The translations under genes were made by a program, and so were the position numbers. A stretch of 39,190 nucleotides of DNA from Kaiparowitsia implicata GSE-PSE-MK54-09C (GTDB lineage: Bacteria; Cyanobacteriota; Cyanobacteriia; Elainellales; Elainellaceae): positions 1 through 39,190 of the forward strand of contig JAHHHI010000015.1 of NCBI GenBank assembly GCA_019359435.1, given 5' to 3'. Below are positions 5,067 to 8,617 of this stretch, in pieces. The first letter of the stretch is position 1. Each line of letters begins with the position of its first letter. The notes under the pieces were generated by a model. That model had not been told where the DNA came from. It made no database searches and worked only from the letters and a program-made list of their open reading frames with translations.

Positions 5067-6599
5067 ATGATTACGATTTTGATTTTGCTGGTGGCCCTAG
5101 GCATTCTTGGCTGGGGGTTTGTGCGAGCCCGCCCCTTTGGGCAGGTGGGGCTGTTGGCTTGGCTGCAATCGGTGGTACTGATGGCACCCTGGCTGGTGTT
5201 TTTTGGTTTATTCGCGGCTGGGCTCTATCTCAATCTGGCGGCAGTGCTGTTGATGATTGTGCTGTCTACGGTGCTGTATGTGGTCTTAGGAAAACGGCTG
5301 CGATCGCTCGGCAGAGATCCAGCAATGCAGCAGCGGCTCTCGCCTCAAGCCTCGGCCCAAGATGCGGCAAACATGGCAGAGGGTAGCACCGATGGCAGTC
5401 TAGACGGCAGCGGCGAGCGTGTCGCAGACGGAACGGCGTCGAAGGACGAGAACGCCTCTAAATCTACACCTGAGAAGGCTGAGTTCGAGGCCCTTCCGCC
5501 TGAGGATCTCAAGGCGATTCAGGGACTCTTTGGCATTGATACCTTTTTTGCGACGGAAACGGTGCCCTATTTGGATGGGGCAATCTTCAAAGGCAACCTG
5601 CGGGGAGAGCCGGATGCCACTCACGCGCGACTGTCGAATGGCCTGCAAGAGCGATTGGGCGATCGCTACCGCCTATTTTTAATCAGCGGCCCCGATCAGC
5701 GCCCCACGGTCGTGGTGCTGCCGAGCAGTAGCGACCCACCCAAAACCACAACGACGCAGTGGAGCTTGGCGATCGCCCTCGGCGCTGCGACCATTTTGAC
5801 CTGTTTTGAGGCGGCGGGGTTGCTGCTGGGGTTTGACCTATTTTCTGATTTTGGGCGTGTGGGCGAAGCACTGCCCATTGCCAGCGGCATCCTCTTTATC
5901 CTCATAGCCCATGAGGTGGGGCATCGCTGGATGGCGCGTCGCTACCAGATTCGCCTCAGTCCGCCCTTTTTCCTCCCCACTTGGCAATTGGGGTCGCTGG
6001 GATCGCTCATGCGGTTTGAGTCGTTGCTGCCCAACCGTAACGTGCTGTTTGACATTAGCCTGGCGGGGCCATTAGCGAGCGGTATTGTGTCACTCTTGAT
6101 GCTGATGCTGGGGTTAGTGCTGTCTCTCAACGGCAGCGACTTCACGGTGCCGCCCAGCATTTTTAAAGGGTCTATCTTGGTCGGCACCTTGGCGAGCGCG
6201 GTGCTGGGCAGCGCGCTGCAGGAACCTGTGGTGGCGGTACATCCGTTGGTGGCGGTCGGCTGGATTGGTCTGGTGGTGACCGCGTTGAACACAATGCCGG
6301 CTGGGCAGCTGGATGGCGGACGCATCATGCAAGCAATTTATGGCCGAACTGTAGCAGGACGGGCAACCTTTGCTACCGTAATAGTTCTAGGGATTGCATC
6401 GTTGGTGAATCCCTTGGCGCTCTACTGGGCTATTGTGATTTTGTTTGTGCAGCGCAATGCCGAACGGCCTGCCCTTAACGAACTTTCAGAGCCTGACGAT
6501 ACACGAGCGGCCCTGGGGCTATTGATTTTGTTCCTGATGGTGGCTACGTTGTTACCGCTCACCCCAAGTTTGGCTGGGAGATTGGGCATTGGAGGCTAG
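5067..6599 (+). CDS. Site-2 protease family intramembrane metalloprotease (EGY-like)
   Basis: This is a polytopic membrane zinc protease of the S2P/M50 family. The zinc motif HEVGH is at residues 282-286 in a hydrophobic helix, and the third ligand motif NTMPAGQLDGGR is at 408-418, with D416 as the expected ligand. Residues 1-75 form N-terminal membrane helices and 90-135 a low-complexity Ser/Asp/Glu linker. Residues 140-215 form a soluble domain with GIDTFFATE as in plastid EGY proteins and their cyanobacterial relatives. At 510 aa the length is typical for that subgroup. The family cleaves membrane-embedded substrates such as anti-sigma factors; the substrate here is unknown. The next gene starts two bases after its stop, so this is the first gene of a compact operon. 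Confidence 0.9.
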   Translation: MITILILLVALGILGWGFVRARPFGQVGLLAWLQSVVLMAPWLVFFGLFAAGLYLNLAAVLLMIVLSTVLYVVLGKRLRSLGRDPAMQQRLSPQASAQDAANMAEGSTDGSLDGSGERVADGTASKDENASKSTPEKAEFEALPPEDLKAIQGLFGIDTFFATETVPYLDGAIFKGNLRGEPDATHARLSNGLQERLGDRYRLFLISGPDQRPTVVVLPSSSDPPKTTTTQWSLAIALGAATILTCFEAAGLLLGFDLFSDFGRVGEALPIASGILFILIAHEVGHRWMARRYQIRLSPPFFLPTWQLGSLGSLMRFESLLPNRNVLFDISLAGPLASGIVSLLMLMLGLVLSLNGSDFTVPPSIFKGSILVGTLASAVLGSALQEPVVAVHPLVAVGWIGLVVTALNTMPAGQLDGGRIMQAIYGRTVAGRATFATVIVLGIASLVNPLALYWAIVILFVQRNAERPALNELSEPDDTRAALGLLILFLMVATLLPLTPSLAGRLGIGG

Positions 6600-6601
6600 T
6601 C

Positions 6602-7420
6602 ATGGCATTTATCCCGCCGGTACTGCTTGTGTTGGATGTGAGTGCCTTGTTGGGGGGCTCAGCCAGTGAATGGTTAGAATTTTCGCGGGTGGGCAAGGTG
6701 TGCCTGCCGCAGGCGGTGTATGAGGACATGCGGCTGTTGTCGGATCGAGCGCCCGATCCGGATTTGGCGGAGTTGGCGAAACGGTTTAGCCATTTTTACC
6801 CCATTAGTGGCTGGCAGGTGTCAGATGCGTCGGCACACCACTCGGCGCTCACGGCGGCGGGGCAATCGCTAACGAAGCGGGCGCGGGTGTCTCTGGCGGC
6901 AGCGCGGACGGCCTATGCCCTGTCGCTTGGGTTTCCAAAGCATCTGGTGGTGTTGGTTACGCGAGATCAGCAGCTGCTGCAGCGAGTTTATGATTTGCCA
7001 TCTAATAATTTTTGTGCGATTCTGCCGCCGGCTTTATTGCAGTGGAGCCGCACGGGGCAGCGCCCGATTTTGGTGAGTCAACTGCTCCAGCAGTTGCGCG
7101 CCACGCTCAGCGCCACCATGACGTCGGGGCTGAGCCGCTCGGGCCAAATGATTCCAGCACGCCCTGAGGGTCGTAGCTCTACTGTTCAGAGGGGTGACAG
7201 CCGCTTTGGCTCTGCGCCAAAGCCGAAGCGGCACTCGCGCCCTTACTTTGAAGGGGATGCGAATGAGGCGTTATCGAATTTGCTGTCGTTGGGGTTGGCG
7301 ATCGCCGGACTAGCGCTGGCGGGCTGGCTATTGTGGTCGGTGTTTAACAACAGTAGCTGGCTAGAGCCGCTGCGACAGCCGCTTGATCCAACGTCACAGT
7401 CACAGGTGTATGGGGAATGA
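6602..7420 (+). CDS. PIN-like domain protein with C-terminal membrane anchor
   Basis: The N-terminal 150 residues look like a PIN-type nuclease fold. LVLDVSALL places D12 at the first acidic position, VYEDM supplies E41/D42, and VTRDQQLLQRVYD supplies D122. Residues 155-220 are basic and Ser/Arg-rich, and a single transmembrane helix lies at about 222-250. A membrane-tethered PIN domain is uncommon among toxin-type PINs, and no antitoxin gene adjoins it. It starts two bases after the protease gene, and its stop overlaps the ParA start by four bases. I infer the PIN assignment from spacing of acidic residues only. Confidence 0.6.
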   Translation: MAFIPPVLLVLDVSALLGGSASEWLEFSRVGKVCLPQAVYEDMRLLSDRAPDPDLAELAKRFSHFYPISGWQVSDASAHHSALTAAGQSLTKRARVSLAAARTAYALSLGFPKHLVVLVTRDQQLLQRVYDLPSNNFCAILPPALLQWSRTGQRPILVSQLLQQLRATLSATMTSGLSRSGQMIPARPEGRSSTVQRGDSRFGSAPKPKRHSRPYFEGDANEALSNLLSLGLAIAGLALAGWLLWSVFNNSSWLEPLRQPLDPTSQSQVYGE

Positions 7421-8169
7421 TTACGGCGATCGCCAATCAAAAAGGGGGCGTTGCCAAAACCACCTCTAGTCTGGCGCTGGCGGGGCTGCTGGCTGACGAG
7501 GGCACCTGCCTGGCGGTCGATCTAGATCCCCAGGGCAACCTAACTACGGGCTTTGGTATAGAGCTAGCGCCAGAGCAGTCCACGGTGTATGAGGTGCTGA
7601 CGGGGGTGCTATCGGTTAAAGGGGCGATCGCTCCTACGCGATCTGGCGTGGCGCTGCTGCCGGGGGATATTTCTCTGGCAAAGATCGAGAAGGAGTTGAT
7701 GACGCAGCCCCATCGCTTCTACACTCTCAAAAAGGTGCTTAACCCCGTGCTGGCAGAGTATGAGCAGGTGGTGATCGACTGCCCGCCGAGTTTGGGACTG
7801 CTCACCATTAATGCCCTCGCGGCAGCGGATGTGCTGCTGGTGCCGGTGCAATGCCAGTTCTTTGCGCTCAAAGGGTTGCAGGGATTGCTGGAAACGATTC
7901 ATACCGTGCGGCAGCGGCTCAATCCTACGCTGAGAATTTTGGGCGTGCTGCCCACGATGGCCGAAACGCACACGGTCATCACCCAGGAGACGATGAAAAT
8001 TTTGCGATCGCAGCTTCAGGACATTCGGGTGTTTGACCCAGTGCCCAAGTCGGTCAAATTCCCTGAATCTAACATGGCCGGAGAGCCAATTCACCGCTAT
8101 GTGCGCGATTGGAAGCTAGTGCAGCCCTACCGTGAGGTGGTGCGAGAGCTATTGATGCTGGAGAAGTAA
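7417..8169 (+). CDS. ParA/MinD-family ATPase
   Basis: This 250-residue cytosolic ATPase has the deviant Walker A motif KGGVAKTT at residues 9-16 (signature lysine K9 and K14), the switch I region VDLDPQGNLTTGFG, and a Walker B-like VVIDCPPSLG. Such proteins partition plasmids, chromosomes or protein assemblies by ATP-dependent dimerisation on DNA or membranes. No ParB-like gene or parS-like repeat is next to it. It sits between a membrane-anchored PIN-like gene (four-base overlap) and a small membrane protein (four bases apart), so a role in positioning a membrane component is possible but is inference. Confidence 0.9.
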   Translation: MITAIANQKGGVAKTTSSLALAGLLADEGTCLAVDLDPQGNLTTGFGIELAPEQSTVYEVLTGVLSVKGAIAPTRSGVALLPGDISLAKIEKELMTQPHRFYTLKKVLNPVLAEYEQVVIDCPPSLGLLTINALAAADVLLVPVQCQFFALKGLQGLLETIHTVRQRLNPTLRILGVLPTMAETHTVITQETMKILRSQLQDIRVFDPVPKSVKFPESNMAGEPIHRYVRDWKLVQPYREVVRELLMLEK

Positions 8170-8173
8170 GCCG

Positions 8174-8617
8174 ATGAACCTGCAAGCAGAACGCGTAGAG
8201 TCCCTCAAGGCGGGAGTGTTGGGGGCAGGGGCGATCGCCCTGACATACCTGGCCCTAACACTCATGCACGCCTATGCTGAAACCCAAGCCAGCACTGAGC
8301 TGTTGGATCAGGCTGGGTTTGCTGACTGGCGCAACTGGTTTAGCTTGGGCAGCACGACGTTGACGGGGGGACTGTTTGGCCTCACTTATCGCTACATCAT
8401 TCGGCAAGATACCAATTTGCATTTGGGATCAGGCGCAGTCTTGGCCTTTGGGCTGGTGCGGGGTTTGGCTCAAATCGACCCGCTGCTGTGGGTGGCGTCG
8501 TCACCCTTAGACTTGACCGTGCGGGTTGGCGAGAGCGTGCTGCTGTTTGCGATCGCCCGTCTAGTCCTAGATTGGAGCCTGCGTCGGGGCCTCGTCAAGC
8601 GGTTTGAATCTTCCTAA
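8174..8617 (+). CDS. Conserved cyanobacterial-type small membrane protein
   Basis: I recognise no named domain in these 147 residues. The sequence predicts three to four hydrophobic segments: about 14-32, 58-75, 83-100 and 115-133. A soluble TQASTELLDQAGFADWRN loop precedes the second. The C-terminus is basic. It is the fourth gene of the protease-PIN-ParA operon, starting four bases after the ParA stop, and it faces the convergent ABC permease gene 47 bases away. Confidence 0.65.
   Translation: MNLQAERVESLKAGVLGAGAIALTYLALTLMHAYAETQASTELLDQAGFADWRNWFSLGSTTLTGGLFGLTYRYIIRQDTNLHLGSGAVLAFGLVRGLAQIDPLLWVASSPLDLTVRVGESVLLFAIARLVLDWSLRRGLVKRFESS

Follow-up and report, generated by a model that had tools for sequence, protein, structure and literature searches.

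A site-2 protease and a PIN-like protein in a four-gene cluster

The DNA analyzed here, referred to as the window, is a 39,190-nucleotide stretch from the cyanobacterium Kaiparowitsia implicata GSE-PSE-MK54-09C (contig JAHHHI010000015.1, positions 1 to 39,190), and its subject is a cluster of four genes at positions 5067-8617. The cluster begins with a gene for a site-2 protease (S2P) and a gene for a PIN-like protein (PINL), which are followed by genes for a ParA-type ATPase and a small membrane protein (SMP):

5067..6599, + strand: S2P, multi-pass site-2 protease (M50), 510 amino acids (Pfam, motifs, hydropathy)
6602..7420, + strand: PINL, PIN-like protein, 272 amino acids (predicted model, fold search, alignment, hydropathy)
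7417..8169, + strand: ParA-type ATPase, 250 amino acids (Pfam, PDB sequence match, tree)
8174..8617, + strand: SMP, small membrane protein with no assigned family, 147 amino acids (hydropathy)

A first-pass annotation had described four tightly spaced genes, three of them for membrane proteins, with a ParA that lacks a ParB partner and a PIN-type protein fused to a membrane helix. The open reading frames and their spacings of +2, -4 and +4 bases were confirmed; hydropathy is consistent with three membrane proteins and places a helix near the C-terminus of PINL; no ParB lies within the cluster; and the predicted structure and fold search agree on a PIN-type fold for the product of 6602-7420. 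Promoter and terminator scans gave no more matches than in shuffled sequence. PADLOC returned no match for any of the four proteins, and a defence system was therefore rejected. The cluster consists of two units of different age, S2P with PINL and ParA with SMP.

The S2P gene matches the Pfam peptidase M50 family at 61.6 bits, against a cut-off of 27.2. Its product carries an intact zinc motif of the HExxH type (HEVGH, residues 282-286), an LDG motif (LDGG, residues 415-418) and the tetrapeptide GNLR at residues 176-179. This tetrapeptide is present in 95 of 96 aligned S2P rows, including every row that lacks HExxH, the exception being L217 with GNMR. We take GNLR to be a motif of EGY proteins, and by this criterion the window S2P is EGY-like.

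Searched alone, the window PINL gave no match in Pfam or NCBIfam, and weak PIN_4 matches were obtained in 19/28 and 16/20 PINL members, with a best E value of 2.5e-5. Its structure was predicted from an alignment of 28 sequences (alignment A4). The resulting model has a PIN fold and a mean predicted local distance difference test score of 82, with blocks over residues 1-170 averaging 81-98, and the protein divides into four parts:

about residues 3-153: PIN-fold domain (predicted model)
about residues 181-219: low-confidence linker (predicted model)
about residues 227-245: membrane helix (hydropathy)
last 27 residues: C-terminal tail

Six Foldseek matches to the model were obtained at E<=0.001, comprising four exosome chains, in which the matched part is presumably the PIN domain of Rrp44, together with Nmd4 and one Thermus protein domain; lactate dehydrogenases came next in the list, with lower probability. 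The top VIA-align match was the PIN domain of SMG6 (2hww_B; Z 11.1, root-mean-square deviation 3.1, 127 residues), and the fifty titles returned are mostly PIN, VapC, protein-only RNase P or exosome entries. Two PDB sequence matches to the profile of alignment A1, both at E 0.7, were taken for chance. A viral or plasmid origin of PINL was rejected, because no relative was confirmed in viral contigs and no match was found in plasmids.

A hydrophobic stretch near the C-terminus is present in all 48 members of the PINL alignment, which comprises 30 proteins from the same order as the window (30 of the 34 with PINL had loci) and 18 from outside it; none has such a stretch in the middle. Hydropathy exceeds the threshold at the N-terminus of 21/48 proteins, including that of the window, and the model shows this segment as the PIN domain's first strand. 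The tail after the helix measures 15-62 residues, with a median of 27. Lysine plus arginine in the 30 residues before the helix equals or exceeds that after it in 40/48 proteins, and we infer that PINL probably has an N-in topology.

Conservation of the S2P-PINL pair

We surveyed 36 genomes of the order, using a threshold of E<=1e-100 for S2P. The protease was found in 34, and in all 34 a PINL match lay adjacent on the same strand, split into three pieces in one genome (G403). The matched stretches are separated by 4 to 221 bases, fewer than 10 in 13 of the 34, and these S2Ps are 57-66% identical to that of the window. S2P lies upstream of PINL in 28/28 named loci, which come largely from the same organisms. 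Neither gene was detected at the thresholds in G394 and G407 (about 83% complete), the latter giving a weak partial PINL match only.

Across the phylum, PINL matches were found in 28 of 386 genomes, 23 of them nearly full-length and five weak and partial. The phylum sample contains PINL in 19 relatives, one from the same order (G011) and 18 from outside it, and in nine of these 18, distributed across several families, S2P adjoins PINL. S2P is the more widespread of the two, being found at E<=1e-50 in 76/194 genomes (at least one, G155, merely at paralogue level) compared with 23/386 for PINL. The possibility that diverged PINLs lie hidden beside other S2Ps was rejected: in 28 S2P loci with flanks of up to about 1.5 kb, the PINL profile matched just the five known cases. 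Conservation of gene order, which the first-pass annotation had named as a test of its reading, therefore extends beyond close relatives for the S2P-PINL pair, but the order of all four genes is rare.

Adjacency of this kind could simply be inherited, with S2P and PINL being co-transcribed neighbors that share no mechanism. The S2P tree described below is compatible with a single origin of the adjacency, S2Ps without an adjacent PINL are common, and PINLs without an adjacent S2P exist. However, the genes have stayed together in every genome of the order that has S2P, across the divergence noted above and in 13 of 34 cases with fewer than 10 bases between them, as well as in several other families, and we consider inherited adjacency alone quite unlikely.

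Other neighbors were also seen. In one family (L037, L042, L044, L045 and L046), PINL stands divergent beside two conserved genes other than S2P, which we take to be hisB-like and AAA/BioD-like. Upstream of S2P in L196 (3784-5165) lie a DUF3110 gene and an SIS-domain gene, identified by Pfam, the latter presumably murQ-like; look-alikes beside S2P were recognized by eye in L217, L221, L230, L232, L241 and L242, which represent several other families. These two genes adjoin S2P with or without PINL, and the window lacks both. Their presence hints at a link of S2P to cell-wall recycling.

Residue loss in the paired proteins and its interpretation

The S2P tree was built from 91 rows with the motif columns excluded, and PINL adjacency was set on it from locus coordinates; it is a quick tree, in which several forks stay open and the branches outside the order are long. 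Rows left out were L137 (a copy of the window), L283 (a copy of L216), the near-copies L143 and L222, and L279 (a 35% paralogue), and no S2P was obtained from L034, L284, L285 or L286. HExxH is absent from 15 S2Ps in this tree, for which at least seven changes are needed. Ten of the 36 PINL-adjacent rows lack it, showing instead GEIAR (four), NEIGR (two), YELGR (two) or TEIAH accompanied by LNGG (two), and these form four clades with support of 99-100 in the Shimodaira-Hasegawa-like approximate likelihood ratio test. Among PINL-adjacent S2Ps outside the tree, L033 and L040 are intact, and L039 and L041, which belong to the first group, have lost the motif, with GEIAR and REIAR in its place. 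Of the 34 S2Ps in the order, the 30 with loci were checked for HExxH, and six have lost it. Sequencing error is unlikely, because each of the four replacement states among the PINL-adjacent rows of the tree occurs in at least two genomes. S2P orthologues with RE..H or RELAM and no adjacent PINL were noted in L250, L267, L274, L276 and L277; the RELAM protein comes from a genome (G193) that encodes PINL elsewhere.

The acidic site of PINL was compared with that of PIN nucleases, for which the available text of PMC12923823 gives D1251, E1282, D1353 and D1392 as the canonical acids of SMG6. Position 12 of PINL is D in 30/30 members from the order and either D (10/18) or E (8/18) outside it. Position 42 is E in 47/48 proteins and D in the window, and position 122 is D in 28/30 order members, with D in five, E in three and neither in ten of the 18 outside. 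The stretch expected to supply the third acid (90-108), placed by sequence and helix order rather than by coordinates, lies in a helix (92-110 in the model) preceding the strand that leads to 122. It contains no acid in the window or in any of the 30 order members, and R93, R95 and R/K102 are conserved there. Aligning PINL with the PhoH-like and YacL-like proteins of the same genome to place the third acid gave a weak and ambiguous result. Position 56 is E in 47/48 proteins and A in the window.

Outside the order, nine of the 18 PINLs carry E102, and acids at 12, 42, 102 and 122 occur together in six (L032, L034, L044, L045, L046 and L047), of which L032 alone adjoins S2P. D or E at all four positions is thus found in 1/39 S2P-adjacent PINLs (30 from the order and nine from outside) versus 5/9 non-adjacent ones, counts that include related rows (L044 and L046 closely so) and constitute a hint rather than a test. 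Judged from the alignment, few if any S2P-paired members have a complete acidic site. The first-pass annotation had read PINL as a nuclease and singled out D12, E41/D42 and D122. D12, D42 and D122 are indeed present in the window, but with no acid at 90-108 the canonical set of four is not complete there; the PIN fold stands, and the nuclease assignment is weakened.

PINL might still cut RNA while tethered to the membrane, perhaps with its site completed by a partner protein, in the way that SMG5 completes SMG6. The acids at 12 and 42 and, in most members, D122 in the order favor an active enzyme, as do the six outside proteins in which, with E102 as the third acid, the set of four could be complete, and the available text of PMC12923823 provides a precedent for a composite PIN site. 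We regard an active enzyme as decidedly improbable, given the acid-free stretch in the window and throughout the order, and the substitutions at positions 12 and 122 outside it.

The first-pass annotation had further suggested regulated release or positioning of a nuclease. In the case of release, S2P would cut the PINL helix and free the PIN domain to the cytoplasm, the short tail making a site-1 cut unnecessary. The pairing of the two genes supports this scheme, a C-terminal helix followed by a short tail is an arrangement that suits S2P substrates, and HExxH is intact in the window and in 26/36 paired S2Ps. On the other hand, the four clades without HExxH retain an adjacent PINL, and in three of these (L038, L039, L041, L043, L104, L110 and L124) PINL keeps its helix and a tail of 27-31 residues, the fourth having yielded no PINL locus for tail measurement. 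With the zinc motif gone from paired S2Ps in four clades, cleavage is probably not the reason for which the pair has been conserved, and because almost all paired members in addition have an incomplete PIN acidic site, nuclease release fails as a general account. It could apply to S2Ps with an intact HExxH, that of the window included, and overall we consider regulated release somewhat unlikely.

That the pairing has been kept despite loss of the protease motif suggests that S2P and PINL act together, and not simply by cut-and-release. We tentatively favor, with a probability of roughly 0.4, a two-protein membrane complex in which PINL is mostly non-cutting and perhaps binds RNA. In such a complex, the S2P-type protein, EGY-like by the presence of GNLR, would hold the tail-anchored PINL and control its placement or stability through direct contact. 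In S2P-paired PINLs, the cytoplasmic PIN-fold domain would be more likely to bind RNA or nucleotides than to cut them. Where HExxH is intact, including in the window, S2P may additionally cleave PINL or other membrane proteins. ParA and SMP would have been added to the operon only within a limited section of the order, where they might contribute positioning.

Several observations weigh against this complex. HExxH has been kept in the majority of paired S2Ps, and proteolysis would therefore matter in most lineages; it is also missing from five S2Ps without an adjacent PINL in the stretches seen (REFGH, RELAH, RELGH, REVGH and RELAM), so that its loss is not confined to the pair. PINL lies away from S2P in 9/18 outside relatives, and lysine plus arginine is lower before the helix than after it in 8/48 proteins. 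E102 could, from its position in the sequence, be the third acid in the outside members that have it. Finally, the constancy of the acids at 12 and 42 within the order, and the near constancy of D122, fit some metal-dependent activity.

A bolder version of the complex, which we regard as rather unlikely, holds that the protease scaffold has turned into a receptor or assembly platform and that a non-cutting PINL holds RNA at the membrane, two enzymes having become a non-enzymatic pair. It is proposed because a possible full set of acids is concentrated in unpaired PINLs and because paired S2Ps lose the zinc motif. The pseudoprotease idea, known from iRhom and EGY3, and the pseudo-PIN idea, known from SMG5, would thereby be joined.

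The window S2P resembles plant EGY1 and EGY2 and the Synechocystis proteins Slr0643, Sll0528 and Slr1821 in being an S2P homolog with HExxH. According to the available parts of PMC4284730, PMC10094980 and PMC12014562, the Synechocystis S2Ps influence how cells respond to acid, salt and ammonium and their substrates are largely unknown, and these parts mention no PIN partner for EGY or Synechocystis S2Ps. EGY3, a chloroplast S2P pseudoprotease, has no HExxH and still has a role (available text of PMC10978774). It is like the motif-lost cyanobacterial S2Ps in that respect, but is a plant protein, whereas the cyanobacterial losses are recurrent, 10 of 15 being beside PINL.

Among solved structures, the PIN domains of SMG6 and Nmd4 rank with those closest in fold to PINL; unlike PINL, however, SMG6, SMG5 and Nmd4 are eukaryotic RNA decay factors, and we know of no membrane anchor in any of them. 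The SMG5 PIN domain lacks catalytic residues, according to the available text of PMC12923823. In contrast to VapBC toxin-antitoxin systems, no small antitoxin gene lies beside PINL in the window, where its neighbors are S2P and ParA. The same genome encodes a protein at L244, which we take to be YacL-type, with a PIN_4 match and a hydrophobic N-terminal part, and hhalign aligned it with the D12-E42 stretch of PINL; in that protein the hydrophobic part precedes the PIN domain, whereas the helix of PINL is C-terminal. A literature search on intramembrane proteases, PIN domains and operons found no report of the combination, among titles and the starts of abstracts, with subscription papers mostly outside its scope. 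An S2P with a genetically fixed partner offers a direct handle on the role of cyanobacterial S2Ps, and the paired S2Ps that have lost HExxH in nature can be compared with intact ones to study what an intramembrane protease may do other than proteolysis.

The ParA and SMP genes

The cluster ParA has an AAA_31 domain by Pfam and a Walker A motif (KGGVAKTT), both common to Soj/ParA partition ATPases, and its best PDB chain is matched at E 1.6e-49. Unlike those ATPases, it has no ParB neighbor in the cluster by open reading frames and Pfam, and in the tree it is separated from plasmid copies and from G396. Three ParB_N matches occur in the genome, each near another ParA-like stretch that is 27-37% identical to the cluster ParA. 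A search with one B. subtilis-type parS consensus showed no excess of sites, with seven matches at up to two mismatches versus nine in the reversed control. The ParA tree (14 rows) divides at 99/99 into eight order genomes, including the window, and a second half in which three plasmid copies stand together with G388, G411 and G396; the ParA of G396 is followed by ParB, and those of the three plasmids by small hypothetical proteins. Recent capture from a plasmid was rejected: plasmid relatives reach 63% identity, but the window ParA groups with seven order genomes, apart from the plasmids. SMP, which has three stretches above the hydropathy threshold used, gave no match in Pfam, NCBIfam, PADLOC or PHROGs.

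In the order survey, the cluster ParA was matched at E<=1e-60 in 11/36 genomes and SMP in 19/36, usually apart from ParA. All four genes occur together in 3/36 (the window, G418 and G419), and ParA with SMP is attached to S2P-PINL in 2/28 named loci, both from organisms already counted among these three, and in 0/19 phylum-sample loci. In G389, ParA and SMP are paired at a different locus. These counts do not support a four-gene pathway for the cluster. The shared gene order of those three genomes favors a reading in which the four products form one machine and ParA positions an S2P-PINL membrane complex. This order was not found in the other order genomes with S2P-PINL at the ParA threshold, and SMP and ParA are separate in seven of the 11 genomes with a cluster-type ParA; we consider such a machine highly improbable.

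Two further contexts were noted. In both relatives that have all four genes, the cluster is followed by a response-regulator gene in opposite orientation (L195:5663-6313 and L196:9344-9997), and in L195 it is LuxR-type by Pfam. Stand-alone SMP genes in L204, L206, L211 and L214 all adjoin the same conserved gene, which is presumably glycogen phosphorylase-like.

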